From Bacteroidota bacterium (GTDB taxonomy: Bacteria > Bacteroidota > Bacteroidia > B-17B0 > Aurantibacillaceae): DNA of 64,000 nt. Position numbers and translations under genes: made by a program. How positions within the stretch are numbered: position 1 is the first letter of the stretch; each line of letters opens with the position of its first letter. Location of the stretch: positions 1 to 64,000 of the forward strand of contig JAHEYF010000009.1 in assembly GCA_023251755.1 (NCBI GenBank). Reading direction: 5' to 3'. Below, in pieces: positions 5,929-51,004 of the stretch. The notes beneath the pieces are model-generated. The model searched no databases, had not been told where the DNA came from, and saw only the letters and a list, made by a program, of their open reading frames with translations.

Positions 5929-6333
5929 CTACCAATAAGGTATTGGAAAACTATAAACGCCTGAATATTGAGAGTTATTTAACTTTTTGTTCCTGAGCGA
6001 AAAGCATACCGTGTACGTGGAACCTTTTAAAGCCATACCATCACCGAACCAGGTTCTTTGGGTGGGATTCAATTGCGCAAATGTCCCATTGTTTTTGTTG
6101 ATGGTGACGTTATTTATCTGGGAGGTATCTTTTATGTATTGATAGTTGATGTGAAAATAAACCTTTAATGCTTTGTAGGCTGATCCCATTCCGGGGTAGG
6201 TAGCGGAGCTATCAATTACAAATAATTCTTTGTCCAATACTTCAACCGCATCGTTGTAAATTGGGTCATGCAGTTTATCTTTTTCACAGGATAAAACAAT
6301 TGCCAATGCCATTATTGCTATTATTTTTTTCAT
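5929..6333 (-). CDS. small lipoprotein of unknown function
   Basis: 134 residues with a strong lipoprotein signal: lipobox VLSC with Cys16. The mature part has no recognised domain; it is rich in short strands and aromatic residues (FHINYQYI, GVYSFPIPYW) and could be a small immunoglobulin-like fold. Its ATG shares one base with the stop of the upstream PEGA-like gene (TAATG), so the two are co-translated and probably work together in the cell envelope. Confidence 0.6.
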   Translation of the reverse strand: MKKIIAIMALAIVLSCEKDKLHDPIYNDAVEVLDKELFVIDSSATYPGMGSAYKALKVYFHINYQYIKDTSQINNVTINKNNGTFAQLNPTQRTWFGDGMALKGSTYTVCFSLRNKKLNNSQYSGVYSFPIPYW

Positions 6334-7109
6334 TAAAAGTTACATTTTAAAGAGATTCCTGCATTCAGGACACCACGGCAAATACTTACATCATAATTTA
6401 CCTTTATATTGGTTAACAGAGGCTTTTCCTCATATACAGGTTTTACAAATTTTTTTCGAATAATTTTTTCTGAAATCACCGCCCATGCAATTGTGGCGGG
6501 GATGAGGACAGAGGATGTTACAGCAAGCGTGTTATTTATAGCCCGGTATTTTTCATACTTACTTTTAAAGTTGTCATAATTTAATTTGTATTCATCCAGT
6601 TCGGATGGAACAAAGGTAACCGTGTTTTCATATAAATTCTTTTGCTCGTTCGCTTGCAGGTAATTATCATTCATCAGTTTCCTGTTTTCTAAAAACCAGG
6701 CGGCCCCGACTGCAATAGTCAATAATCCTATATGATAGGGCATTCTCAAAAATTCCTTGTTTACCCGATACTGCCCCAGTTGCTCTCTGTATTGCAGGTA
6801 TTCATCGGAGTAGTTTAATCTTTTGGCATACAGGCTTAATTTATTTGTTGTGATTTTTAGTGTATCTATTGTTAATTTTCGTTTGGGAGCCCATACCTGC
6901 ACCATATGGTTTCCGGCCTTTAATTGCCGGGGCGTTTTTGAAGGAAGAATCTTTTGTGCATCAAGGTAAATTACAACACCTTTTTCCTCAAAATAAATTA
7001 AGGCTTTGCCTAAAGAATCATTTTTATCCTGAGAATAAGAGTAATAGGGTAAAATAAATAAGATGCCAAGTATAAATTTAAAAATCCAATTCAGAAATTT
7101 CTCTTTCAT
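6333..7109 (-). CDS. exported PEGA-like protein with two membrane segments
   Basis: 258 residues with an N-terminal signal (residues 8-27, ending SYSQ). Residues ~35-95 look like a PEGA-type beta domain (VVIYLDAQKILPSKTP..LKAGNHMVQVWAP), a surface-exposed carbohydrate- or protein-binding fold. Two hydrophobic stretches follow (about 118-131, IGLLTIAVGAAWFL, and 193-212), then a strand-rich tail ending in KCNF, which could reach the outer membrane. The gene lies just after the second Rhs-tail-like remnant and is translationally coupled with the lipoprotein gene downstream. The specific role is unknown. Confidence 0.55.
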   Translation of the reverse strand: MKEKFLNWIFKFILGILFILPYYSYSQDKNDSLGKALIYFEEKGVVIYLDAQKILPSKTPRQLKAGNHMVQVWAPKRKLTIDTLKITTNKLSLYAKRLNYSDEYLQYREQLGQYRVNKEFLRMPYHIGLLTIAVGAAWFLENRKLMNDNYLQANEQKNLYENTVTFVPSELDEYKLNYDNFKSKYEKYRAINNTLAVTSSVLIPATIAWAVISEKIIRKKFVKPVYEEKPLLTNIKVNYDVSICRGVLNAGISLKCNF

Positions 7110-7164
7110 AAAAATGGCATTTAGTTCTTAATAATCTTTGTGTTTGTATATTTATTTCTAAATT

Positions 7165-7244
7165 TAATTTTCTCTTAACCTCAACCTAACATTAGCTTCT
7201 TCAAACTATTTCCCCACAATTAAAATCATGGCTACTTATCAAGC
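7165..7244 (-). pseudogene. decayed copy of an Rhs-tail-like sequence
   Basis: On the minus strand this stretch aligns over about 70 bases with 8227-8300: both contain CATGATTT, GTGGGGAAAT and AATGTTAGGT in the same order and spacing (one small gap). Here the frame is interrupted. It begins immediately after the stop of the small lipoprotein gene at 7245, just as the other copy begins after the stop of the immunity candidate. Confidence 0.45.
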
Positions 7245-7673
7245 TTAATCAATTAATTTTTTTAACTCTATTTCCCCTTTAAATAAACCAATCATTTTTA
7301 GGTGAATATTTTTTTCAGACTCCTTTTCCATCACCATTTTAATAGTTGATTGGTCAGTAGTGAAATTTAAAGTATCTATATTAACTTGGGATGAAAAAAC
7401 GACTTTTTTAGAACGATCGCTGTTAAAAACAGTAATTCTATCATTACCTAATGATTCCCATATATTTAAGCCGTCTTCCAAAGCTGAAACTAATTTGTTT
7501 TTCTCAAAAGGTACAACGGCAGGATATGGATTTAAACTAAATTCCTCGACTTTCCATTGCTCTCCTTTACAAAAAGGGTTACATTCATTGCCTTTACTGC
7601 TTTCCTTTTCTTCACAGCCATAAACTGTAAAGATTGAAAAAATTAATACTGCATTTAATAATTGCTTACCCAT
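7245..7673 (-). CDS. small lipoprotein, possible orphan immunity-type gene
   Basis: 142 residues with a signal and Cys20 (VYGC). The mature protein starts with a Cys pair (CNPFCKGEQW) and then a run of short strands (KIVFSSQVNIDTLNFTTDQSTIKMV), compatible with a small lipocalin-like or beta-sandwich domain. No family was recognised. It lies in the array of small genes downstream of the Rhs gene and is followed directly by a decayed Rhs-tail-like copy. That position makes a role as a displaced immunity protein possible, but no sequence feature proves it. Confidence 0.55.
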   Translation of the reverse strand: MGKQLLNAVLIFSIFTVYGCEEKESSKGNECNPFCKGEQWKVEEFSLNPYPAVVPFEKNKLVSALEDGLNIWESLGNDRITVFNSDRSKKVVFSSQVNIDTLNFTTDQSTIKMVMEKESEKNIHLKMIGLFKGEIELKKLID

Positions 7674-7754
7674 TTTATCTTAGGCTTTAACAAAAGACCC
7701 TATGTTCAATCAAATCCCCTTCTTTTATCATATCTTTTTAAACAAAAACTACCC

Positions 7755-8204
7755 TTATTTCTTTTCATCAAGATTCAATAATAATTCTTTTCTTTTTGAC
7801 TGTGTATCATAATAATTTTTAGCCTGTAAAAAGACGAACTTATATCTTGAGTGAGGTTTAAAAAATCTATGATTTAAATTACTTACATACAAGAATATTG
7901 AATCGTTTTTAATCGTGTCTATTTTTAAAATACAGTCCGACATTAGCAAAGCGTTACTTGAGTCTATCTTGCTACTTTGATTTTCGATGGAAATAAAATC
8001 TCCAACATAACCAAGAACTCCTGTGTTATATTTAAACCAATAAATATTATCTTCATTATTAATTTTTAAAGAATCAATTAATATCCTGTGAAAGGTTTCA
8101 CTACCAAATGAAATATTTTCATCATAAGTTTTTTTCATCTTAAAATAGATGAAAATGGAAATAAGTAGAAGGATAGTAGCGGCAATTAAAATTTTATTTT
8201 TCAT
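7755..8204 (-). CDS. membrane-anchored small protein, possible orphan immunity gene
   Basis: 149 residues with one N-terminal hydrophobic helix (residues 5-22, ILIAATILLLISIFIYF) followed by a soluble, strand-rich part (LGYVGDFISIENQSSKI). No lipobox. I do not recognise the family. It starts 22 bases after the short Rhs-tail-like frame at 8227-8307, the position that an immunity gene takes after a toxin tip in Rhs and CDI loci. That is an inference from order only. Confidence 0.55.
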   Translation of the reverse strand: MKNKILIAATILLLISIFIYFKMKKTYDENISFGSETFHRILIDSLKINNEDNIYWFKYNTGVLGYVGDFISIENQSSKIDSSNALLMSDCILKIDTIKNDSIFLYVSNLNHRFFKPHSRYKFVFLQAKNYYDTQSKRKELLLNLDEKK

Positions 8205-8307: not shown

Positions 8308-8666
8308 TCGTTAGAAATAGTGCATGTATCTGGAATATACTTTTCTTTAAACCATTCGGGAATAAATATGTTTTTAGAAATTGTTCCATAATCAACTCCA
8401 TCAAATCCTTCGAATATCAAAACTCCCTTTTCTTTTATTTCAATTTTCTGTATATACATTCCAAAAAAAGTTTCCAATTCTTGTTCTATAAATTTGTCTT
8501 TATTTGTTTTATCAAGTTTCAAGAATTTATAATAATCATAATTGGAATCTTGAAGCATCTTTTCAATAATAATGTTGTCAAGACTTGGTGCTTGAATAAA
8601 ACATTCAATACCTTCTGGAAGAATGTTCAAAACATCTACTAAAAAATTATTTCCTGTCTGTGTCAT
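8301..8666 (-). CDS. candidate immunity protein for the Rhs toxin
   Basis: 121 residues, acidic, no signal peptide, so it acts in the cytoplasm. No family was recognised. Its ATG shares one base with the stop of the giant Rhs gene (TAATG), giving obligatory co-translation with the toxin tip. This arrangement, together with small size and acidity, is typical of immunity proteins in polymorphic toxin systems. The pairing is an inference from position; binding residues cannot be named. The gene is complete and its 3' end abuts a displaced-tip remnant, as in arrays where new tip-immunity cassettes push older ones downstream. Confidence 0.65.
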   Translation of the reverse strand: MTQTGNNFLVDVLNILPEGIECFIQAPSLDNIIIEKMLQDSNYDYYKFLKLDKTNKDKFIEQELETFFGMYIQKIEIKEKGVLIFEGFDGVDYGTISKNIFIPEWFKEKYIPDTCTISNEW

Positions 8667-11600
8667 TAGTCTAAAATTTTATGTCCGCTATTAGGTAATA
8701 CTTTTTTATTGGGATATAAATCAACGTTCATGTGTTTTTGCGGAGTAACTCCATCTCCTCCATATTTTATAGGAAGTGGATGTGTTTCTATTCTAAAATC
8801 TAATTTTTGATTTCCATTTTGAAAAGTCAGATTAACTTCTTGAGAAGGATTTAAAGGATTTACCTTGACCGTACCACCTTGACCTTTAAAATCATCAATC
8901 GCATTAAGTACTTTTTGTACATTGGGACTCACTCCTTTACCAGCAATAGCATCTACAGCACCAAGGCCTGCTATTGCCGATGTAACAACATGAGCCTTAT
9001 CACTCCATTGTCCTTTATATTCACCCCAAATGGCTCCTATATTATTGCTCAATGAAGGATCTTTAATCGATTGAATAAGACCAGCACGTGCTCCGTCAGA
9101 GTGTAATGAGCTTAATGTTCCTGCTGCTAAAGGGCTTAACATAATTGAACCATTCTCCATTAAATGGCTTCTCCATTGGTCATTGAACTCTTTGCCATTA
9201 ATATCCTTATCAGTATTATTAATAGCATCCGTAAAACCTTGTTCATCTTTTTTAGATACAACTATACCACCATCATGCCCATCATTCGTATTAGCTAATT
9301 CTTTTCCATCTTCACTAAAATAATGTGTTTCTGTATTTCCTAAAACATCATTAGATAAAATGGGGTTATTTCCCATACTTACATAAGGACTTTCGCTTTC
9401 ATGGAAAACAGGATCGACAGCTTTCCAACGAACAATGTCTACATCAAGTCCCCTGAAGTGAGTGTAATAATCATTATCGCCAAGCTCCCTGTTTTTCTCA
9501 CTTCCCTGATAGCCGAACATTTCAGATGAACTTCCTTCAAAGCTTCTTAATGTTTTACCTGATGCGTAGTAATCGAACGCTCCTTCTATGTTAAAGAGCA
9601 GACCTGACCTGGTGTTGTTGGTATTTGTAACGGAGTAGGTAACACGGGTGTTGCCCAAGTGGTCGTATTCGTAAAATTTATTTCCTGCACTACTAATTTC
9701 GACACTACGATTATTGGCATAAGCATACCACTTCCAGGTATTGTTAGTAATGTCAAATACACCTAATGTTTTTCCGGAATTGTCTACTAAATAATATTCC
9801 TCATTATTATTAGAGGTCAGGTTCTTTTTGTAAATCCGGTTGTCATTAGCATCGTATTCATATTCCCATTGTTTGCTATTTGAACCTGTTCCGACAGTTA
9901 CATTATATGGTAGGTTACTACGTGTGTATCGGCTCTGGCCTAATGATTTGTATGTATCTGTTCTTAAATTACCATTACCATCATAAGTATAAGTTCGTAA
10001 GGCAGTATTGGTACTGTCTATATGCAATAAGCGGTTATTTCCAGTTTGATAAGCATAGTTCCAGTTTTGTACCCAATTGGCCGGGCTTGTTATGCCGGGG
10101 TTATAATAAAGGCCACGCTGCAAATTGAGAATATTGCCAATTTTATCATACATATATTTTTCATCGCCATATTTGGTTTTGGCCGAACCGGGCTGTATAT
10201 CGCTGCTTAATACATTCATTACCGAAGCATCGGCATTGGTCAAACGGTTTAAACCATCGTAGGTATAACCGTAAACGGTTGCCCCGTCCATTAAGCCGTT
10301 TAAGGAAGATGCATTGGCCGATCTCGCCTCAAAATAACTGTGTTGCGTTCCGTTAATGTTGCCGTTATAGTTTTTGCCTGCCATTACCCTTGTTCCGTCA
10401 TTGGTGGAGCCTTGCGGGTGTTGCGCATCGTAATACAGTTTTTCGGTATACAGGTGGCTGCTCAGTTGGGTCAGCCTGTCGCGCACATCGTAAGCATAAC
10501 TTATGGTATCAATGGGCAGGGCTGTTCCGTCGTTTGCGGTGGTATAATACTTAATTTCCTGTATTAAACCCAGGGCATCGTTATAGGTATAGCCGGCTAT
10601 TTTATGCTGGTTCACCTGGCTTTCGGTGAGGCGACCCCAGCCATCGTACACATAATCGTAGCGGATGTCTGCCCCGTCAAATCCCGCGTCTACCTCTTGT
10701 GTTTTAAGGCCGTTGCGCAGGTTGTAATTTTTGTATTGTATAAGTGTAGCCAATTGGGTACTTCCGTTGTTAAACTGGGTAATTTCCCATTTGGGTAAAC
10801 CCTCATTGTTGTACGAATATACACAGATATTTTTTAATTGCCCGCTGTGATCATAACTGTAAGTCTGCGTCAGTTTACCCCGTGTATTGCTTTGCGCATT
10901 AAAGTGGGGGGCAGCTGTGTTCGCTCCTAAATACCCTACAATTTGGGAGGAATAAGTTGGTGTGGCAATGGCAGGCTGGTTAAAATCGTAATACCAGGCT
11001 TTTTCGGGAACAGTTGTTCCAAGTAGTGAGTAAGGGTTTACATTGGTTTTTACAGTAGTATTGCCCTGTGTGGTATAGGTGTACCAGTTAAAACGCCTGT
11101 CGATACTTGTAGCGTGGGTAAAAGGAGATTGGGTAGTGTAAGCCGACCATTCACCGTTTTTATACGCCAGGGGATTGGCCCCTGTTGTAACACTCACCCT
11201 GGTCTGTGTTAGCATACGCCCGTAATTATCGTACGTGTAACGGCGCAGGTAGGGGTTGTTATTATTGTCGGCACCTACAAGCGCGTTTGAATCCTGCTCC
11301 AGTACCAGTTGTCCCATACTGTTGTACATATAATTAACCTTACCGGCATCTGGTGTGTGTTTGCTGTACATCAAACCGGATATATTAAAACTGTAATTGC
11401 TTTCTTGCCCGGCAGGGTTTTTTATTTTTATCATGTTACCGTGACTATCATAATAAAAACGGGTCACTACAGCCTGGTTGTTTTTTATGTAAGCTTTGCT
11501 GGCTACTTTTTGTCCAACAGCATTGGTGTATGAAATTATCCTTTTCCCGTCTTCATCTATTAAAGCTGCTTTAAGAAATTTACTGGTGTTTAAATAGGAA

Positions 11601-14600
11601 CTATTACATACCAGTGACATATCAAGAGGTAAGCCTGGCTCTTTCAATTCGTTAATTAATTGTGTGCCTGTAATAATGTGGTAATTACTGTTAACAGTAT
11701 GGCCTGTTGTAATGTTTTCACCAAACTTGGCTGTGCGTAATACCCTTGAACGCTGATTATTTTCATATAACTGCTGGGAATAAGGATCGTTGACATTGTT
11801 GAACTGTGGCTGAAATACCGTTGGGCTGGTAGTGCTTTGTATAAAAGGTTTGTATTGTTTAATCACCCTGTCCCAGTTATCATAAATACTAAGCCCGGAA
11901 TGAACGGTAGATAAACCATACATCAGTGCTGGATCAAGGCTGTTATAATTGTTAGTTATTTGGGAGAGTATATCTAATTTACGTCCCAGGGGGTCTTCAT
12001 AAGCACGGCTGTGTTCAGCAATATTGGAAAGTGAGTTAGTGGTATCGAGCAAAATGAAGGATTCCACAAAATTCTCTGCTGCCCGGTCTTCAAAACTTAA
12101 ATTCAGGTTATTGGTAAACTGGCTGTATTTGTTAATAGTTAATAGTTGTCCGTTGCGGTAAGCCTTGGCAAGGCGGGAATAACTGTCATACTCATAATGC
12201 GTTACCATTCCGTTGGGGTCAATAATACTATCGACAGTAAAATCAGGGTTGTACAGGTAATTGGTTACCAATGAATCGGGTAAACCCTTACCTACTATAA
12301 TTTTAGTAGGTACACCTGCATTAAATATTTCGATATAACCAGTGTTGTTACAATAATGTACTGTATCGATTAAAAAATAAAGTTGTGGGCGGGTGTATTT
12401 ATATTCGGTAAACAAGTTGGTTGCATTGTGCGCCAACTCAATTAAACCATTGCTTTCGCGTTTATCAATATAGGTATTCAGCAATGTATCGTAAGGGAAC
12501 TCGGGTACAAATTTAATTGTAGTGTTGCCACTAACAATGGTACTTACAGGTTTAAAACGCAATACCTGATTGGTGGCATAACTGTGGTTGTAATTATTGT
12601 AAAGCCTTGTGTAGGCACTGTCTATACGCACCGTATCAATTTGCCGGGCGGTATAACGTAGCATTACTTTATCGACAATCTGGTTTAAAATATACCTGGC
12701 CGGGTCGGATGGAGGTAGGGGATTGCCGTCTGAAAATCCACAAGGGCACTGGTAATGGTCGTTGTTGTAATAAACATCCTCTGTACAGGGTTCGTTATAT
12801 CCTATATTTTTACCATTAATGGTTGATGAAACAAGCACACAGGGCCATTTAGGTTGTATATGCACAGTGGTATCCCCTTGTGACATCGTACAGGTAGTAT
12901 CAGGGCCGGAGAAATAAATCCGTTTAGTATAGTTCAGTAAATCTGTAAACACATAATCATAACTCCAGTTGTTATCGTACATATAATAGTCAGATACCCC
13001 AATGGGGTCTTGACAAGGCGCTTTAGAAGTCACCCGCTTTTCGTAAGGCACATCCCTTACCTTGTGTTTAGCCAAAAAGAAAAGCGTTGGGAAATTGGAG
13101 CTGGCAAATGTTCCGCCACTGCCCTGTCCAAATTTCAACAAATCATAATCGTCAAAATTAGCGAAGTCATTCAGCAGGTCGTAATAATAATAATAGTCTT
13201 CCTGTGTATAAGCATCCGGCATATCGGGCGAATAAGACTTTTTGCGGAACAATTGCCAGGAAGGCTCCCAACGAATTTTTCCGGTGTTCAATCCTAATAA
13301 ATTTTTATAGCCCTCTGATTTGGTAATTCCTTTGTAACCTGCATCCCAGTATTGGTATTCAGTAATATTGGTAAGGCTTTGGGTACTGAGCTGTACCGCT
13401 TGGTTTCCGCCAATGGTACGGGCATTGGAAGTATTGCCCGTTCCCTGTTGCGATGCAATAGCCGAAGAAGCCATGCGCATAGAACCATTGGAACCAGGTG
13501 ATACGTTGCTATTGGTTAAAGCTGTTGAGGAATTAGTGGTATAAATATCATAGTCTGTTTTAGTTTGTTTGCTTGGGGCAACAAAGTAAGAATTGAGGTA
13601 AGCCGTATCTAATGCCGAGAAAAGCGAAGGGGAAGTATTTTCGAGAAAATCATCCTGAAAAATAGCATCTTCAATGTCTAAGCGGCAATCCGTATTGTAA
13701 ATATTAACGCTGGGCACAGTTGTGTTCAATAGCGAATATTCAGAGGTATCCTCGTTGCGGTGAAATATCATCTCATCACGGTACATCCCATTGGCATAAG
13801 CTTTGCTGATGGCGTATTCGTCTGTTTCTTCGCTGAGTAAATTATTTCCGGCATCATAACTTTTACTACTTTTTAATTTACCCCACAATAAATAATCGTT
13901 CTGGGTCGAATAATGTTCATAGGCATCGTATACCCTGCTGGTCATATTGTCCATCAAAGGATGCGAAATCTTTGCATTAATAAATCCCTGTTCGGAGCTG
14001 GCATTGCTCACTTTGTAATGTGAACCAAAAGGATATACATCACCGGTAGATGAAACAATCCCTACTTTGCCTACAGGGTTGGTAAAATCATACAACCAGT
14101 CTTTTGCCAGTGTAGAACCTGTTGGAGAAGAAAGTACTTTTCTTTGAACGATTAATGAAACACGTATTACTCTTTGAACAGGCGAAGGATTGGCATAATT
14201 CGTCCCGCCAAAAGCAGTACTATAATTCAGGTTAATATCCCAATTGCTTAAACCGGCAACCCTCGTACGGCTGTCGGAAAGCGGGTAAAACTCATAAGAA
14301 GTTTCACCACCCATCTGGTCAATTATTTTAGTTAAACTGTAAAAGCCCTGAATACTGGTGTAAGCATTGTTGATAATGTTAAAGTTTTTGTATGTGTAAT
14401 TGAACTGTGTAGTGGGCAATATACTGGCATTGGTAATAGCTGTTGGATTATTTTGTGAACCATTGGTAGGTACCTGAATTATTTTTTTCAATAAAAAAAC
14501 ATTCCGCACCCAGTTTTTACTATTAGCCGGAAACACAAAAGCCCCGCTTGATATTACTGCGCGGTTATTGATTAAGGAATCCACCCGCACCTCGTATTCA

Positions 14601-17005
14601 AAATTCAACTGGTTCACCAAAACCCTGCCCGTCATGTTGCTTGAGTTGTTGTTTGCCCCGTTGGTTTTGTATTGTTTCACACTACTTAGCATAAAGGGGT
14701 TTTTGGAATAACGCACCAGTTCAATGGCAGCCAGTTTTACATTTTGATCGGCAGCGGTAGGAACATTGGGGTACATATTCGGATTTTGGGTACAGATAGT
14801 GGAAGTCTGGTCGAACCACCAGTATTTGTACCTGGCGCTATTTGGGCTTAAGCTATTGTCATCAAGTTTGCTCCACAACCAGTCTGTCATGTACCAGGGC
14901 ATACCAATGCCGAAGTTGTGGGGAATTTTATCGCAGGGCTCTATATCGCTTGTAATCATTGGAGTAAAATACTGTAGGTGGTCAAAAATGGTATTGTAGT
15001 AAGGTGATTTGGAATTACCCAATGGCATATAATCCGTATTGGTGTTGTAATCATAATCAAATTTGGTATCTGAATTTCCCGGCCCAACCTGTATATGAAA
15101 ACCCTGATACTCTTTAGGCAGGTTGGGCATTACAAACAAATTACTTGTTTTCATGTAAGCATCGTGACCATCCTGATTTGTTAAAGTTGCTTTACCCGCA
15201 GAGTTCCATTTAAGAGCCTGATTAAAGGTTGTAAATAGTGAGCGGTAACGGCGGGATTCATAATCGGCCTCGCAAACGGTATGAACATTACTGGAAGGAT
15301 TTTGCAAACCAATATCGTTTTGGGCAAACGCACTGGTGTTATCACCGCTTACTACATTTACATCAAAATTGCAAAAGGCTTTGGAGTACGAACCCTGACT
15401 ACCTGCATATTGGTTGTAGATAAGGCTTTTTACTTCGTAAATATCACCGGGAGGGCAGTCGGTACTACCTATACGTGGAGACTCAAGATAAGAATGGGTA
15501 AAGGGAATATCGGCAGAGGAACTGATCGGATTGCGGGTTAACAAATAATTCCATTCGTTTGAATTACCACAGCCTCCGGTTGGAACACTACTGGAAGCAA
15601 TTTTGTAAGGATTGTTCGGGTTAATAACTAAAGTTCCGCTGTTAAACCCTGTGTTTGCAACGGCCTGATCAGATTTGCCGTGGTTGTATCGCCACCAGTT
15701 TGCAAGGTTGTTGTTTGCTCGTTGGGTAGAAGAGTTGCCATTGTTATTGCATCCGTCCGTATTAGGCTGGTTGTAAAAATCACTGCCGAGTATGTCTGCT
15801 TCAGTTTGTGAATCAATTCCCTGTGTCCAGACTGTTTTGTAATTGTATAAAGAGTCGAGGCGATGTACCCCTGTTTCGCATATACGTAACATATCTTTGG
15901 TATCAGGAGAATTAATGGTTTTGTAGTCCAATACTAATTCTTCGAGGTAATTGACATCATCGGTTTGTGATTCGACTTTGGTTAAGAATATGTCTTTATA
16001 CACGCTAAAATCAGGTACTTTATGTGCAGGCGGAAAACCCAGGGTGTCCTGGTAAAAATTGAGTACTTCCTGTCCGATAACTGCACGAAGCCTTGACATT
16101 AAATTGGAGTATTCCTGAAAATAATTGAACTTACCAAAAGTCTGGTACTGGAATTGTATAGCAGCTGCATTGCGGTGATTAGGATTGGTAATGCTGTTGC
16201 AATAAAAACTCAAAAATTCTTCTTTGGGTAACAATACCTGGTCTAACACACGGGGTGTTCTTGTAAGGTTAACTTCTGGTGTGACATTGGTATCCACATA
16301 CACCCTTTGGTTGGAAGGGGAACGGTATCCTGTCATTCTTGTTGAGAAAAAATATTTAGTACCATCGTCGGTAATCACATCCCAACTTCCACCATTGTAA
16401 AATATGGCCTCTACATATTTATCGAATTTTGCCGGAACAAATACGTGTCCTGCTGTCTGTGGATCGGTATATTTATAAATAAAGCGTTCATTAATTACAC
16501 CCGGAATATTAATTTGTGGTTCGAACCATACTAAATCTCCTTCATGTTGGGCGTCGGCCTGATTAAAATAAAGGTAACTGTTATCATAAGTGAGCGCAGC
16601 AGCTGAGCCAACCTGCGAATCGTCGTATTTAGAAAACGATTCCGTAGTAATAGTAATAGAAGGAATATTCAGGTTCCAACCTTCCCCATAAGGAATACCG
16701 CTTGAAATCGTCGTTTCCCCACCCGAAGTAAAAGTACTCGAATAAGAGGAACTAAGCGTAAAACTTAATCCCGATGGCGTAGACACCGTTCCCAAAGTAT
16801 ACGAAGTATTCATCGTCCCTGTAAACAGGTTCACATCCGAAGTGGAAGCCCCTTTGCCCAAAGCGGAAGCCTTTACTTCTTTTACAGAAGGCTGGTTGTT
16901 TTCACGTCCGCCTATCATTTGTGCCTGCACCGAAACCTGTATCCCTAAAAGTACCGCTATCGTTTGCAGTGTTCTTTTAATTTTGTTGCTTACTATCCTA
17001 TTCAT
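8666..17005 (-). CDS. giant Rhs-repeat polymorphic toxin
   Basis: The ATG at 17005 (2779 aa) is preferred to the TTG at 17020. A signal peptide follows (residues ~12-30, ending VQAQ), so the protein is exported. The first ~1550 residues are a long N-terminal region without clear domains. YD/Rhs repeats run from about residue 1600 to 2520 (YEYDSYSRLAKAYRNGQ, YTYDGLNRLTNA, YDGNGNL). The Rhs-associated core lies at about 2515-2555 in a divergent form (FRGLDVDIVRWKAVDP). The last ~230 residues are the variable tip. Its final 70 residues contain RIETHPLPIKYGG, KHMNVDLY and GHKILD; the spaced Arg, Glu and three His suggest a nuclease-type active site, but I cannot assign a family. Rhs repeats form a shell that encloses the toxic tip. 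It is cotranscribed with the 1503-aa repeat protein upstream and coupled to the immunity candidate downstream. No T9SS sorting domain is present, so the export route from the cell is open. Confidence 0.88.
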   Translation of the reverse strand: MNRIVSNKIKRTLQTIAVLLGIQVSVQAQMIGGRENNQPSVKEVKASALGKGASTSDVNLFTGTMNTSYTLGTVSTPSGLSFTLSSSYSSTFTSGGETTISSGIPYGEGWNLNIPSITITTESFSKYDDSQVGSAAALTYDNSYLYFNQADAQHEGDLVWFEPQINIPGVINERFIYKYTDPQTAGHVFVPAKFDKYVEAIFYNGGSWDVITDDGTKYFFSTRMTGYRSPSNQRVYVDTNVTPEVNLTRTPRVLDQVLLPKEEFLSFYCNSITNPNHRNAAAIQFQYQTFGKFNYFQEYSNLMSRLRAVIGQEVLNFYQDTLGFPPAHKVPDFSVYKDIFLTKVESQTDDVNYLEELVLDYKTINSPDTKDMLRICETGVHRLDSLYNYKTVWTQGIDSQTEADILGSDFYNQPNTDGCNNNGNSSTQRANNNLANWWRYNHGKSDQAVANTGFNSGTLVINPNNPYKIASSSVPTGGCGNSNEWNYLLTRNPISSSADIPFTHSYLESPRIGSTDCPPGDIYEVKSLIYNQYAGSQGSYSKAFCNFDVNVVSGDNTSAFAQNDIGLQNPSSNVHTVCEADYESRRYRSLFTTFNQALKWNSAGKATLTNQDGHDAYMKTSNLFVMPNLPKEYQGFHIQVGPGNSDTKFDYDYNTNTDYMPLGNSKSPYYNTIFDHLQYFTPMITSDIEPCDKIPHNFGIGMPWYMTDWLWSKLDDNSLSPNSARYKYWWFDQTSTICTQNPNMYPNVPTAADQNVKLAAIELVRYSKNPFMLSSVKQYKTNGANNNSSNMTGRVLVNQLNFEYEVRVDSLINNRAVISSGAFVFPANSKNWVRNVFLLKKIIQVPTNGSQNNPTAITNASILPTTQFNYTYKNFNIINNAYTSIQGFYSLTKIIDQMGGETSYEFYPLSDSRTRVAGLSNWDINLNYSTAFGGTNYANPSPVQRVIRVSLIVQRKVLSSPTGSTLAKDWLYDFTNPVGKVGIVSSTGDVYPFGSHYKVSNASSEQGFINAKISHPLMDNMTSRVYDAYEHYSTQNDYLLWGKLKSSKSYDAGNNLLSEETDEYAISKAYANGMYRDEMIFHRNEDTSEYSLLNTTVPSVNIYNTDCRLDIEDAIFQDDFLENTSPSLFSALDTAYLNSYFVAPSKQTKTDYDIYTTNSSTALTNSNVSPGSNGSMRMASSAIASQQGTGNTSNARTIGGNQAVQLSTQSLTNITEYQYWDAGYKGITKSEGYKNLLGLNTGKIRWEPSWQLFRKKSYSPDMPDAYTQEDYYYYYDLLNDFANFDDYDLLKFGQGSGGTFASSNFPTLFFLAKHKVRDVPYEKRVTSKAPCQDPIGVSDYYMYDNNWSYDYVFTDLLNYTKRIYFSGPDTTCTMSQGDTTVHIQPKWPCVLVSSTINGKNIGYNEPCTEDVYYNNDHYQCPCGFSDGNPLPPSDPARYILNQIVDKVMLRYTARQIDTVRIDSAYTRLYNNYNHSYATNQVLRFKPVSTIVSGNTTIKFVPEFPYDTLLNTYIDKRESNGLIELAHNATNLFTEYKYTRPQLYFLIDTVHYCNNTGYIEIFNAGVPTKIIVGKGLPDSLVTNYLYNPDFTVDSIIDPNGMVTHYEYDSYSRLAKAYRNGQLLTINKYSQFTNNLNLSFEDRAAENFVESFILLDTTNSLSNIAEHSRAYEDPLGRKLDILSQITNNYNSLDPALMYGLSTVHSGLSIYDNWDRVIKQYKPFIQSTTSPTVFQPQFNNVNDPYSQQLYENNQRSRVLRTAKFGENITTGHTVNSNYHIITGTQLINELKEPGLPLDMSLVCNSSYLNTSKFLKAALIDEDGKRIISYTNAVGQKVASKAYIKNNQAVVTRFYYDSHGNMIKIKNPAGQESNYSFNISGLMYSKHTPDAGKVNYMYNSMGQLVLEQDSNALVGADNNNNPYLRRYTYDNYGRMLTQTRVSVTTGANPLAYKNGEWSAYTTQSPFTHATSIDRRFNWYTYTTQGNTTVKTNVNPYSLLGTTVPEKAWYYDFNQPAIATPTYSSQIVGYLGANTAAPHFNAQSNTRGKLTQTYSYDHSGQLKNICVYSYNNEGLPKWEITQFNNGSTQLATLIQYKNYNLRNGLKTQEVDAGFDGADIRYDYVYDGWGRLTESQVNQHKIAGYTYNDALGLIQEIKYYTTANDGTALPIDTISYAYDVRDRLTQLSSHLYTEKLYYDAQHPQGSTNDGTRVMAGKNYNGNINGTQHSYFEARSANASSLNGLMDGATVYGYTYDGLNRLTNADASVMNVLSSDIQPGSAKTKYGDEKYMYDKIGNILNLQRGLYYNPGITSPANWVQNWNYAYQTGNNRLLHIDSTNTALRTYTYDGNGNLRTDTYKSLGQSRYTRSNLPYNVTVGTGSNSKQWEYEYDANDNRIYKKNLTSNNNEEYYLVDNSGKTLGVFDITNNTWKWYAYANNRSVEISSAGNKFYEYDHLGNTRVTYSVTNTNNTRSGLLFNIEGAFDYYASGKTLRSFEGSSSEMFGYQGSEKNRELGDNDYYTHFRGLDVDIVRWKAVDPVFHESESPYVSMGNNPILSNDVLGNTETHYFSEDGKELANTNDGHDGGIVVSKKDEQGFTDAINNTDKDINGKEFNDQWRSHLMENGSIMLSPLAAGTLSSLHSDGARAGLIQSIKDPSLSNNIGAIWGEYKGQWSDKAHVVTSAIAGLGAVDAIAGKGVSPNVQKVLNAIDDFKGQGGTVKVNPLNPSQEVNLTFQNGNQKLDFRIETHPLPIKYGGDGVTPQKHMNVDLYPNKKVLPNSGHKILD

Positions 17006-17026: not shown

Positions 17027-20000
17027 TTAATTTCCTTTTGAGCCCCTGATATTACTCACTCCATTGCCCGTGCTGTATATATCTGTTTCGTAAGCGAAGT
17101 TTACATCCGACTGCAAATTGCTCCGGTAAATAATCACGTTGTTTTTATAATACCTGATCTCCTCCGGGAAGATCGCCACCTTTATGCGGTCGTTCGGCTG
17201 CACAGCACTCACTAATTGTTTGTTGTAAAAACCATCGTTGTCTGTTTCTATAATATACAATTGCCCATAAGCAATAAACACCTTGTAATTCGCCTTGTCC
17301 GCATTTGAATTATCCACCGCGCCAAAACCCATCAACAGTTGTGAAGAAGTATCTTTCACATCAAAAGCCACCCAGATGCTGTCTTCCAGTGCAAGCGTAT
17401 CAGCAGAATAAGCCGTGCCATTGTCCCAGCCCATGCTTGCACCCGATTTTGTAATGTTTGTCCCGTCCGTATTAACAGTGAGAGTACTTACAGTGGGAAG
17501 CACCCAATTGATTTTTTTTCCTTTCAATAAGTTCGCATTGTAAAAACTACACCTCACATTTTTAAACTTCCCGTTGTGTTGTCCTATACTTGCTTTCACA
17601 AACAGTTCCCCTGTTAAGCAGTTGAGCGTACTATCGAAGGCAATTCCATTCTTTTTATAATACATTTTATTTCCTTTGCGTTCCATGCGGACAATGTCGC
17701 CCACATTCACCGTTACAAAGCTCCCGCCCGAATACCGGTATAAAAAATTACCGTACAGATAAAAATTATAATCGATGTCCTGGTACTGGTTATTGCCCGA
17801 AGAATGCGTGTTTTCGTCAAGCAAACCAATCATTTTATTGTTGTTGCCCACCTGGTCCACCGTGTATTCCAGCCAGCCGTCTGTACCAGCAGACAATTTA
17901 TTGTAGCTTACCGCACTACTGGCCCAGTCGTTATAACTATTGTTAATCAGGGTGTCCCCTGTTTGTGTTAGCGAACTAAAATCTTTCCAGAATAGTTTGT
18001 AACCAATACCGACTTCACGTACAATGCTTGTTTTCTGATCGCTGATTGTTACTGTATAGGTTCCGGTAGCTTTACTGCTGATGTCCTGTGTGGTTTCGTT
18101 TCCGCTTTGCCAGTTGTAGGTATAAGGGCTGTAACCATTGCTTACACTTAAATCAATGGCTCCGGCATTGCCGTCTTCGTTGGTAGTTAAATTAGTTACA
18201 AGGGTAAACGTATTCATTAAACTGTTGTATGGGGCTGCAAAACTGCAACGTACATTTTTAAAGGTTTCGTTGTGGCCGCCAATGCTTGCTTTCACAAAAA
18301 GTTCTCCGCTTAAGCAATTGAGGGTACTGTCGAAAGCTATCCCATTTTTTTTGTAATAGATTTTAGTGCCACTGCGTTCAAGCCTTACAACATCCCCGAT
18401 GTTTACTGTTACAGAACTTCCTCCGGGGTAACGGGAAACACTGTTGCCATAATGGTAAAGGTTATAATCAATATCCTGGTATTGGTTATCGCCTGCAAAA
18501 TTGATGTTCTTGTCTAACAAACCAATCATTTTGTTGCTGTTGTTTGTTTCGTCAATGGTGTATTCCATCCAGCCATTGCCGGTTAGTTTGTTGATGCTGA
18601 CGGCATTGCTTTCCCAGCTGTTGGAGGTGGGGTTGATGAGTGTGTCTGCTGTTTGAACAAGGGAATTAAAATCTTTCCAGAAGATTTTGTAACCGATACC
18701 GATTTCTCTTGTCACACTTGTTTTCTGGTCTGTGATGGTTACGGTATAGGTTCCTGGTGCTTTACCACTGATGTCCTGGGTAGTTTCTCCACCGGGAAGC
18801 CATTGGTAGGTGTATGGACTGTAACCACTGTTTACACTTAAATCAATTGCCCCTGCATTTTCATCCGCAGAAAGGCTATAGTTGGAGTTTACATTGTTAA
18901 AGCTCATTAAGCTGGTATAGGAAGCTTCGAAGCTGCAACGTACATTTTTAAAGGCTTCGTTGTGGCCCCCTATGCTGGCTTTGATAAAAAGTTCGCCGCT
19001 TAAACAGTTCAGGGTGCTGTCGAAAGCGACTCCGTTTTTTTTGTAATAAATTTTAGTTCCGTTTCGTTCAAGCCTTACAATATCTCCGAAGGCTACTGTT
19101 ACAGAATTTCCACCGGGGTAACGGGCAATACTGTTGCCCTGTTGGTAAAGAATGTAATCAATGTCCTGGTATTGGTTATTGCCCGCAAACAGGGTGTTGT
19201 TATCCAACAGGCCAATCATTTTGTTGCTGTTGGTGGTTTGGTCGATAGTGTATTCCATCCAGCCATTACCTGTTAATTTATTGATGCTGACCGCGCTGCT
19301 ATTCCAGCCGTTATAAGTGGGGTTAAGCAGGGTGTCGCCGGTCTGAACCAGACAATTAAAATCTTTCCAGTAGACTCCGTAACCCAATCCAATCACCTGT
19401 GTTTTGGTTCCACCTATTTGGTCGCTAACGGTAAGGGTATAGGTGTGTGGGTCTTTATCGGTAATATAGGGTTCGTTGCTGTTATAAGGTTCCCAGTGAT
19501 AGGTATAAGGTGTTTGCCCTCCGTTTACGCTAAGGTCAATCCTTCCGTCGGCATCATTGGGGATGCTGTTGATGCTGCGTACATGGGCTATAAAACCAAG
19601 TGAGGTGATGGGAGGGGCTGCAAAACTGCAACGTACATTTTTAAAGGCTTCGTTGTGCCCGCCAATACTGGCCTTTACAAAAAGCTCCCCGCTTAAACAG
19701 TTGAGGGTGCTGTCGAAAGCCACTCCGTTTTTTTTGTAATAGATTTTAGTACCACTGCGTTCTACGCGAACAACATCACCTGTGTTCACAGTAACGAAAC
19801 TTCCACCTGAATAATGGTAAAGCAGATTGCCATGCTGATAAAGGTTGTAATCAATGTCCTGGTACTGGTTATTGCCCGAAAAATTAGTGTTCTGATCCAA
19901 CAGACCAATCATTTTATTGCTGATGATAATTTCGTCAATGGTATATTCTATCCAGCCATTTCCTGTAAGTTTATTGTGCGTTACGGCACTGCTGGCCCAG

Positions 20001-21538
20001 CCCTGATATGTTGTGTTGATGAGTGTATCTGCCGTTTGTGTCAGGGAATTAAAATCTTTCCAGAAGCATTTGTAACCGATACCAATGACCCTTGTTACAC
20101 TTGTTTTTTGGTCGGTAATTGTTAGGGTGTAAGTTCCGGGGGCTTTGCCGCTGATGTCCTGGGTGGTTTCGTTACCGGGTTGCCAGTTGTAGGTGTATGG
20201 AGAATAACCATTGCTTACGCTTAAATCAATTGCCCCGGCATTTTCATCGGGGCTGTTTGTATAGTTGGAGTTGATGTTGTAAAAATTCATTAAACTGCTA
20301 TAGGGGGCTGCAAAACTGCAACGTACATTTTTAAAGGCTTCGTTGTGGCCGCCAATACTGGCTTTGATAAAAAGCTCTCCGCTTAAACAGTTAAGGGTGC
20401 TGTCGAAAGCCATGCCGTTTTTTTTGTAATAGATTTTAGTGCCGCTGCGTTCAATCCTTACAATATCCCCGATGTTTACTGTTACAGAACTTCCTCCGGG
20501 GTAACGGGAAACACTGTTGCCATAATGGTAAAGGCAATAGTCAATGTCCTGGTATTGGTTATCGCCTGCAAAGTTGATGTTCCTGTCTAACAAACCAATC
20601 ATTTTATTACTGTTGTTTGTTTCGTCAATGGTGTATTCCATCCAGGCATTGCCGGTTAGTTTGTTGATGCTGACGGCATTGCTTTCCCAGCTGTTGTAGG
20701 TGGGGTTGATGAGGGTGTCTGCCGTTTGTGCAAGGGAGTTAAAATCTTTCCAGAAGATTTTGTAACCAATACCTATTTCTCTGGTTACGCTTGTTTTCTG
20801 ATCGCTGATGGTTACGGTATAAGAACCGGGAGCTTTGCCGCTGATGTCCTGTGTTGTTTCCCCATCGGGCATCCAGATGTAGGTGTATGGATTGTAACCA
20901 CTACTTACACTTAAATCAATTGCCCCTGTATTGCCATCATCGGGGTTTGTAAGGCTGGTGTTTATATTGTTAAAGTTCATTAAGCTGGTATAAGCAGCTT
21001 CAAAGCTGCAACGTACATTTTTAAAGGCTTCGTTGTGGCCCCCTATGCTGGCTTTGATAAAAAGTTCGCCGCTTAAGCAATTGGCGGTGCTGTCGAAGGC
21101 TGTGCCGTTTTTTTTGTAATAGATTTTGGTTCCGCTGCGTTCAAGCCTTACAATATCTCCGGTGGACACTGTTACAGAATTTCCACCGGGGTAACGGGCA
21201 ATGGTGTTGCCCTGTTGGTATAGAATGTAATCAATGTCCTGGTATTGGTTGTTGCCTGCAAAGTTGATGTTTTTGTCCAATAAACCAATCATTTTATTGC
21301 TGTAGGGGCTTGGGTCAATGGTGTATTCCATCCAACCATTGCCGCTTAGTTTGTTGATGCTGACTGCGCTACCGGCCCAACCATTACCGGTGGGGTTAAG
21401 CAGGGTGTCGCCACTTTGTACTAAGCAGTTGAAGTCTTTCCAGTAAACGGGGTAAGGGCTTTGGGCAGTGCCGGTTTGCGCTATTATTGCCAGTAGCAGG
21501 AACGCAAGTTGGGTGTAAATTTTTTGTAATCTTTTCAT
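17027..21538 (-). CDS. giant secreted protein with six SPRY-like/SprB-type tandem repeats
   Basis: 1503 residues with a signal peptide (residues 1-25, ending TGTAQ). The body has six units of ~230 residues, starting near residues 34, 263, 493, 723, 953 and 1183. Each starts with a ~150-residue lectin- or SPRY-like domain (WKDFNxL.. to ..KIYYKKNG, FDSTLNCLSGELF, KNVRCSF). Units 1-5 are followed by a ~65-residue SprB-type repeat (GAIDLSVSxGYSPYTYxW.. ETTQDISGKAPGTYT). A seventh, divergent domain of the same kind (INWVLPTVSTLTV.. NNVIIYRSN) ends the protein at residues ~1341-1503. SprB repeats are known from gliding and adhesion proteins. No T9SS tail is seen. The stop lies 21 bases before the Rhs ATG, so the two form an operon. 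I infer a surface adhesin or delivery partner for the Rhs toxin. Confidence 0.8.
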   Translation of the reverse strand: MKRLQKIYTQLAFLLLAIIAQTGTAQSPYPVYWKDFNCLVQSGDTLLNPTGNGWAGSAVSINKLSGNGWMEYTIDPSPYSNKMIGLLDKNINFAGNNQYQDIDYILYQQGNTIARYPGGNSVTVSTGDIVRLERSGTKIYYKKNGTAFDSTANCLSGELFIKASIGGHNEAFKNVRCSFEAAYTSLMNFNNINTSLTNPDDGNTGAIDLSVSSGYNPYTYIWMPDGETTQDISGKAPGSYTVTISDQKTSVTREIGIGYKIFWKDFNSLAQTADTLINPTYNSWESNAVSINKLTGNAWMEYTIDETNNSNKMIGLLDRNINFAGDNQYQDIDYCLYHYGNSVSRYPGGSSVTVNIGDIVRIERSGTKIYYKKNGMAFDSTLNCLSGELFIKASIGGHNEAFKNVRCSFAAPYSSLMNFYNINSNYTNSPDENAGAIDLSVSNGYSPYTYNWQPGNETTQDISGKAPGTYTLTITDQKTSVTRVIGIGYKCFWKDFNSLTQTADTLINTTYQGWASSAVTHNKLTGNGWIEYTIDEIIISNKMIGLLDQNTNFSGNNQYQDIDYNLYQHGNLLYHYSGGSFVTVNTGDVVRVERSGTKIYYKKNGVAFDSTLNCLSGELFVKASIGGHNEAFKNVRCSFAAPPITSLGFIAHVRSINSIPNDADGRIDLSVNGGQTPYTYHWEPYNSNEPYITDKDPHTYTLTVSDQIGGTKTQVIGLGYGVYWKDFNCLVQTGDTLLNPTYNGWNSSAVSINKLTGNGWMEYTIDQTTNSNKMIGLLDNNTLFAGNNQYQDIDYILYQQGNSIARYPGGNSVTVAFGDIVRLERNGTKIYYKKNGVAFDSTLNCLSGELFIKASIGGHNEAFKNVRCSFEASYTSLMSFNNVNSNYSLSADENAGAIDLSVNSGYSPYTYQWLPGGETTQDISGKAPGTYTVTITDQKTSVTREIGIGYKIFWKDFNSLVQTADTLINPTSNSWESNAVSINKLTGNGWMEYTIDETNNSNKMIGLLDKNINFAGDNQYQDIDYNLYHYGNSVSRYPGGSSVTVNIGDVVRLERSGTKIYYKKNGIAFDSTLNCLSGELFVKASIGGHNETFKNVRCSFAAPYNSLMNTFTLVTNLTTNEDGNAGAIDLSVSNGYSPYTYNWQSGNETTQDISSKATGTYTVTISDQKTSIVREVGIGYKLFWKDFSSLTQTGDTLINNSYNDWASSAVSYNKLSAGTDGWLEYTVDQVGNNNKMIGLLDENTHSSGNNQYQDIDYNFYLYGNFLYRYSGGSFVTVNVGDIVRMERKGNKMYYKKNGIAFDSTLNCLTGELFVKASIGQHNGKFKNVRCSFYNANLLKGKKINWVLPTVSTLTVNTDGTNITKSGASMGWDNGTAYSADTLALEDSIWVAFDVKDTSSQLLMGFGAVDNSNADKANYKVFIAYGQLYIIETDNDGFYNKQLVSAVQPNDRIKVAIFPEEIRYYKNNVIIYRSNLQSDVNFAYETDIYSTGNGVSNIRGSKGN
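17500..21445 (-). repeat. six direct repeats of about 690 bp inside the giant gene
   Basis: The landmark AATCTTTCCAG recurs (once as AGTCTTTCCAG) near 21435, 20745, 20055, 19365, 18675 and 17985, a constant step of about 690 bases. Long blocks are nearly identical at DNA level, for example around AACGTACATTTTTAAAGG (18250, 18940, 19632, 20322, 21012). Such identity implies recent duplication or gene conversion and predicts copy-number variation between strains. Confidence 0.9.
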
Positions 21539-39380: not shown

Positions 39381-39538
39381 TGATTAGCTAATTAGCTGAT
39401 GTGATGATATGCTGATTAGCTGATGGGAGTAATAGGTAAATGAAACGTGAATAGGTAATAATGATTAGCTGATGGGATGATTAGCTGATGGGAGATAGGT
39501 AAATGAAAAGCTTACCGGTGTTGATGATTAGCTGATGA
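39381..39538. repeat. GATTAGCTGATGGGA repeat block after sucD
   Basis: Five copies of GATTAGCTGATG (or GATTAGCTAATTAGCT) begin near 39382, 39413, 39463, 39478 and 39525, with two copies of an ATAGGTAAATGAAA-type unit between. The reverse complement of the same family is at 51005-51120; AATTAGCTGATGTGATGAT is shared exactly (39390-39408 and 51102-51120). Confidence 0.7.
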
Positions 39539-50932: not shown

Positions 50933-50974
50933 GAGTATTGAGATGTTAGTATTGAGTATTGAGATGTTAGTATT
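50933..50974. repeat. two perfect 21-bp tandem copies before the WD40 gene
   Basis: The unit starts GAGTATTGAGATGTTAGTAT and is repeated exactly at 50933-50953 and 50954-50974; a degenerate third follows. It begins 15 bases upstream of the WD40 TTG start, so the normal leader and start of that gene may have been replaced. Confidence 0.7.
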
Positions 50975-51004
50975 GAGATAGTAGACATTGATCATCTCAA
51001 ATCT

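Follow-up and report, generated by a model that had tools for sequence, protein, structure and literature searches.

A gene for a large repetitive protein (P0001) lies directly upstream of a gene for an Rhs protein (P0002) on the minus strand of a 64,000-nucleotide stretch of a Bacteroidota genome (contig JAHEYF010000009.1; hereafter the window), and comparison across genomes indicates that the link between this repeat protein and toxins of the Rhs type is not random. Its repeating unit joins a domain that we call SPRY-like to an SprB repeat. Among the 59 genes of Bacteroidia that carry this unit in decidable surroundings, 52 (88%) are linked to an Rhs-type module, 14 of these by fusion to a true RHS core and the rest by adjacency. 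We lean towards reading the pair as a polymorphic, Tc-like toxin with a dedicated surface partner, in which a stalk of lectin-like and SprB domains would target or tether the Rhs toxin.

Linkage and architecture of the repeat protein

Linkage was read from neighbourhoods whose open reading frames (ORFs) were classified with profiles built in this analysis, and the loci were tallied from the resulting tables. At E <= 1e-8, the profile of the SPRY-like unit matched 12 genomes in the family, of 65 searched, and 37 in the class, of 396 searched. In addition to the fusions, 33 of the linked genes lie beside a gene for a TcB-like protein (B) or a Skp-B pair, and 5 lie directly before an Rhs gene of the type of P0002 (R-type). 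The remaining unit genes comprise six that are undecidable at contig ends and seven unlinked ones that are taken up below; the outcome that the earlier note on this DNA had named as fatal to its proposal, a repeat protein found mainly without Rhs genes, is thus the reverse of what the survey returned. The figure of 14 fusions counts proteins, with no phylogeny behind it to speak for independent origins, and it leaves out two loci (L065 and L054) whose matches came from a profile (F) that held SPRY-like sequence. Chance adjacency of unit genes and B genes is negligible because this genome has few B genes, with profile matches at four contigs among the matches listed.

P0001 (17027..21538) is 1503 amino acids (aa) long from its ATG start. 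Its N-terminus (MKRLQKIYTQLAFLLLAIIAQTGTAQ; 21461..21538) was read as signal-peptide-like by eye rather than by a predictor. There follow unit 1, with its SPRY-like and SprB parts (aa 31-260; 20759..21448), unit 2 (aa 261-490; 20069..20758), unit 3 (aa 491-721; 19376..20068), unit 4 (aa 722-951; 18686..19375), unit 5 (aa 952-1181; 17996..18685) and unit 6, which is the SPRY-like part alone (aa 1182-1332; 17543..17995), and the protein ends in a degenerate SPRY-like domain (aa 1333-1503; 17030..17542). Direct-repeat analysis of the gene found six direct copies, spaced 690, 690, 693, 690 and 696 bp from start to start, so that the constant 690-bp period of the earlier note is better given as 690-696 bp. 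The DNA copies are 71-93% identical to the reference copy, and the six SPRY-like parts, each of 149-151 aa, are 66-93% identical as protein; the units span about 230 aa each, and the note had correctly seen six of them but overstated their likeness as near-identical. Because the units pair as 1/4 (88% identical), 2/5 (93%) and 3/6 (75%), their sequences suggest that a three-unit block was duplicated within the gene.

The SprB repeats were recognised by Pfam in five stretches (PF13573; 71.7 bits against a curated cut-off of 28), and a broader SPRY-like profile detected the seventh, degenerate domain at 17039-17479 (E = 1.5e-14). A terminal SPRY-like domain of this type also ends the protein directly upstream of an R-type Rhs at L048, L057, L068 and L087.

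We use "SPRY-like" as a description of fold, because this part of P0001 matched no Pfam model, the SPRY family included, and the name rests on similarity to concanavalin A (ConA)-like, SPRY and galectin folds; a search of PDB sequences with the unit profile likewise returned no relatives. An AlphaFold model of unit 4, built from seven sequences, is weak overall (predicted local distance difference test, pLDDT, 54; predicted template modelling score, pTM, 0.56), with strands at residues ~35-125 mostly at pLDDT 60-90. The ~150 N-terminal residues of this model resemble ConA-like folds, among them those of galectin, SPRY and laminarinase (Foldseek E 4e-4; VIA Z up to 9.8 over 137 residues, root-mean-square deviation 3.8). 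On this model, "lectin-like" or "SPRY-like" is a fair label for the fold of the unit, and ligand binding is putative.

SPRY-like units are present at two more places in this genome. At the first (contig C1), a single 3039-aa chain comprises four units, the terminal SPRY-like domain and Rhs, with a B-type gene just upstream. At the second (C87/C63), an OmpH/Skp gene, a lipoprotein gene and the gene for the 1864-aa protein that we named B come after the repeat gene. The repeat gene of this second locus is in pieces (G000:C87:1-4182 and C63:63386-66801) that are probably one gene, broken by the assembly at a contig end inside near-identical units; repeat copy number is untrustworthy in short-read assemblies. 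At a further locus (C149), Skp, B and Rhs lie behind a 958-aa protein in the position of P0001 (A protein) that is devoid of SPRY units. The genome also encodes SprA, a core protein of the type IX secretion system (T9SS).

A Tc-like Rhs protein with an exchangeable cassette

P0002 (8666..17020; 2784 aa) starts at TTG 17020 or ATG 17005. As the stop codon of P0001 ends at 17027, the gap is 6 bp to the TTG or 21 bp to the first ATG, the latter being the distance that the earlier note had given; judged from the spacing alone, the two genes would be co-transcribed. The protein is composed of an N-terminal half with a TcB-like, SpvB/RHS fold (13619..16918), an RHS/YD core homologous to the separate C proteins of related operons (9551..11500) and a variable C-terminal toxin region (8666..9352). 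RHS/YD repeats were detected over cut-off by Pfam (PF05593 RHS_repeat, 44.9 bits) and by our core profile; PF05593 alone is insensitive here, and a genome-wide search with it misses the window Rhs.

The N-terminal fold was modelled with AlphaFold for residues 35-1134 from 28 sequences (pTM 0.75). The best structure matches were TcdB2-TccC3 and YenB/RHS2 (Foldseek E 1.8e-10 to 1.9e-9; 1.8e-10 to 6h6g), with ~395-413 residues aligned to TcdB2-TccC3 (VIA Z 18.5 to 4o9x and 16.0 to 6h6g) and 233 residues aligned to the SpvB N-terminal domain (VIA Z 14.5). A fold like that of a carbohydrate-binding module (CBM) was matched at model residues ~350-740 (Z 8.0), an insert that lies in the TcB-like half, and no beta-propeller was among the VIA matches listed. 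Searches of PDB sequences with the B profile, P0002, the SPRY profile and the profile of a domain described below (YLRF) gave nothing useful: the B profile drew a single weak CBM-like match (E 0.005), and for the Rhs-side queries (B profile and P0002) no sequence match to Tc structures was detectable.

For the C half of the R-type protein, hhalign gives an alignment with separate C proteins (E 3.9e-23). At the N-terminus no more than 67 columns align to B (E 5.7e-5), so that by sequence the protein is not B and C simply joined end to end; the case for TcB plus TcC is one of fold. With a TcB-like N-terminal fold, then RHS repeats and a swappable toxin-immunity cassette, P0002 looks like a fused TcB-TcC cocoon that unites the two parts in a single chain; the pair of B and C looks like the split version.

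In an alignment of four R-type proteins, invariant columns drop to 0-2 per 100 at the C-terminus. The C-terminal ~150 residues of P0002 recur (48%) on a different Rhs backbone in a genome from another bacterial family (G414), where the next gene is a homologue (44%) of P0010 (8301..8666; 121 aa), the probable immunity protein that follows P0002. The same tail and following gene on another backbone are the hallmark of an exchangeable toxin/immunity cassette, and together with the RHS/YD repeats and the variable C-terminus they mark the toxin as one of the polymorphic kind. Behind P0010, at 5929-8204, are four short ORFs, two with lipobox-like N-termini (7245-7673 and 5929-6333); these are possibly further immunity genes or unrelated lipoproteins.

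The CBM-like insert in the N-terminal half of the Rhs protein and the lectin-like repeats of the A protein would also suit a pair that is not a weapon at all but uses its Rhs shell and lectin stalk for binding or capturing polysaccharide or other cargo. We consider this very improbable, given that the C-terminus is hypervariable and that the toxin/immunity-like cassette moves between Rhs backbones.

Related operons and the YLRF domain

Related loci are ordered as A (adhesin), Skp chaperone, lipoprotein, B (TcB-like) and C (Rhs plus toxin), and paralogous operons are alternatively composed of B plus an A-C fusion. The SPRY repeats are not the only decoration in this setting: other A proteins carry the YLRF domain and other N-terminal domains. 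The YLRF domain comprises ~100 aa at the C-terminus, is common in operonic A proteins, and has the motif LDGGYY...GDNR...LEVxNEKxEKWYLRF (alignment A5). Instances in this genome are at G000:C149:11476-11793, C13:97964-98257 and C63:63392-63682. No Pfam family corresponds to it, and the idea that it is a T9SS type A tail was unsupported (hhalign probability 9%).

All 20 of the loci that were picked by YLRF and fetched (L150-L169) have B downstream; in most, Skp stands between the A and B genes and C follows B. Among the matches listed for the 396 genomes, 81 of 87 YLRF matches have a B N-terminus no more than 3 kb downstream on the same strand, at a median of 1192 bp; four of the six without a listed B (G187:C2, G326:C116, G342 and G316) do have B in the fetched loci. 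Viewed from the other end, YLRF is upstream of at least 81 of the 150 listed B matches. The domain is a good marker for finding such modules. In the 12 loci examined, Skp is followed by a gene whose product, of ~190-220 aa, has a lipobox-like N-terminus.

The core of the module is common, with B-type genes in 109 of the 396 sampled Bacteroidia genomes. In a cultured example of the Skp-lipoprotein-B-C order, plasmid pAT2 of Aureibacter tunicatorum NBRC 107587 (AABK36_RS23195-RS23220), most of the genes are annotated as hypothetical proteins. The A gene of pAT2 gave no YLRF match. From these operons we draw a broader and more tentative proposal, which we regard as possible: that Bacteroidota share a widespread three-part toxin, for the most part unannotated, whose adhesin, displayed by the T9SS and recognised by YLRF or the terminal SPRY-like domain, would replace TcA in docking and delivering a TcB-TcC-like cocoon. 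A Skp-like chaperone and a lipoprotein would be dedicated to this system.

The same operons invite a different explanation of the A protein, as an export carrier rather than a targeting part: a T9SS cargo that binds the tailless toxin and takes it along across the outer membrane. Among operonic A proteins, the one at L091 ends in a T9SS type B sorting domain over cut-off (a second, in L049, is below cut-off), and Skp-like genes directly follow A in many operons, SkpA being part of the Flavobacterium johnsoniae T9SS translocon and required for SprB export (PMC10994853). A T9SS cargo protein is also encoded upstream of a large Rhs gene in Porphyromonas gingivalis 381 (PMC6775972). We nonetheless hold the carrier explanation to be rather doubtful, as the A protein of the window is without a T9SS tail, YLRF is not detectably like a type A tail, and most R-type Rhs genes are without such a partner.

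A proposed role and its precedents

On the reading that we favor, of an Rhs toxin with a surface partner, P0002 would be the single-chain equivalent of TcB-TcC, an RHS cocoon enclosing the C-terminal toxin, and P0010 would give immunity. P0001 would be exported to the surface and form a stalk of lectin-like and SprB domains, whose lectin units may bind a target glycan or receptor and so choose the target; a receptor-binding, adhesin or surface-anchor role, as the earlier note had offered, fits this arrangement. Because relatives have fusions and the adjacency is conserved, the terminal SPRY-like domain may dock onto the Rhs protein and hold or present the cocoon at the cell surface, from which the toxin would enter a neighbouring cell. 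Where present, Skp could be an export helper, because its F. johnsoniae counterpart is needed for SprB export. The adhesin would then take the place that TcA has in Tc toxins, with no sign of relation to TcA.

Several observations weigh against this reading. Library scans found no C-terminal T9SS sorting domain in P0001, of type A or type B, nor any in P0002, as the earlier note had already seen; the Por_Secre_tail matches to P0001 (residues 453-483 and 1144-1175) are internal, within SprB repeats. The same scans matched the toxin region of P0002 to no known family. P0001 and P0002 are encoded with neither a Skp nor a lipoprotein gene between them, in contrast to the A-B-C operons. The seven unlinked unit genes are away from any Rhs module. 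Unlinked products of this kind (L093, 6784-19773; L071; L088; L106; L075) reach 4329 aa and ten units, with tails that look like T9SS type A and are over cut-off in L106 and L075. Finally, a profile of the R-type N-terminus found 40 loci in 84,980 species genomes, mostly in metagenome-assembled genomes of Saprospiraceae, Crocinitomicaceae, Flavobacteriales and Chitinophagales, and a SPRY-like protein is directly upstream in only three of them (L110, L112 and L119), with four further loci ending at a contig edge within 1 kb. By eye, most upstream genes at the others are unrelated, coding for instance for regulators, a transposase or an acyl-CoA synthetase-like protein, and at a few the upstream gene encodes another surface protein with a T9SS-like tail. 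The earlier note had counted absence of the neighbour from most related Rhs loci against its proposal, and for this subtype the survey that it had called for returned just that: the partnership that it proposed is upheld by the linked and fused genes, but since so few relatives carry the repeat partner, it is not obligatory for this Rhs subtype.

These unlinked genes and the scarcity of the partner among R-type loci, as well as the SprB repeats in many other proteins of this genome, would be expected if the A protein were an independent gliding or biofilm adhesin that merely shares a transcript with the Rhs gene. We judge this unlikely, as convenience hardly explains linkage at the observed frequency over many genera together with the RHS-core fusions.

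The toxin-and-partner reading has its closest structural parallel in the Tc toxins (TcdB2-TccC3 and YenB/RHS2), which share the SpvB-type N-terminal half, the RHS shell and the variable C-terminal toxin, and whose TcB/TcC division is matched by the split of the cocoon into B and C genes in paralogous operons. They differ in that P0002 has B and C in one chain, with the CBM-like insert matched and no beta-propeller seen, and in that a lectin/SprB protein stands in TcA's place. No TcA-like gene was noticed beside the loci, and the nearest window ORFs matched no Tc family in Pfam, though no search was aimed at TcA. The mosquito protein SGS1 (PDB 8fjp) is matched by both parts of the pair, by the SPRY unit at residues 1574-1716 (Z 9.6) and by the R-type N-terminus at residues 387-1303 (Z 13.8). 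It is eukaryotic and a single chain, and we know of no toxin/immunity cassette in it.

T9SS cargo beside Rhs or TANFOR toxins is already known. In P. gingivalis 381 (PGN_1817/PGN_1818), the gene for a large Rhs/YD protein directly follows that for a T9SS-cargo protein; the accessible part of the report (PMC6775972) describes no SPRY repeats, Skp gene, fusions or TcB-like fold. The TANFOR polymorphic toxins of Bacteroidetes, reported in 2020, are encoded directly downstream of SprB-repeat T9SS substrates, and a T9SS link was proposed (PMC7073777); unlike P0001, the protein encoded before the toxin carries a T9SS C-terminal domain. That class is defined by the TANFOR domain, and NCBIfam gave none in P0001 or P0002, though the release may hold no TANFOR model. 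The SprB gliding adhesin has the same repeats (PF13573), whereas P0001 alternates them with SPRY-like domains, is without a type B tail and has an Rhs partner. A TcdB/TcaC-like pathway in Bacteroidetes has been noted by comparative genomics (PMC3482391).

The 2019 P. gingivalis study describes the distribution, organisation and role of Rhs/YD toxins in the phylum as then unstudied (PMC6775972). We found no description of the SPRY repeats, the A-Skp-lipoprotein-B-C operon, the A-C fusions or YLRF in a literature search that most subscription papers lay outside. Together, the linkage, the fusions and the YLRF domain provide a candidate that is concrete and can be tested: a Tc-like cocoon with an adhesin of the cell surface coupled to it.

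Two minor observations were made along the way. Two R-type Rhs genes (L120 and L128) are in a record titled Glaciecola amylolytica, of the Gammaproteobacteria (CP034120.1), possibly through mislabelling of the record or horizontal transfer. In the window, short tandem repeats outside the locus are present at 39413-39537 (periods 63/16) and 50933-50977 (period 21).
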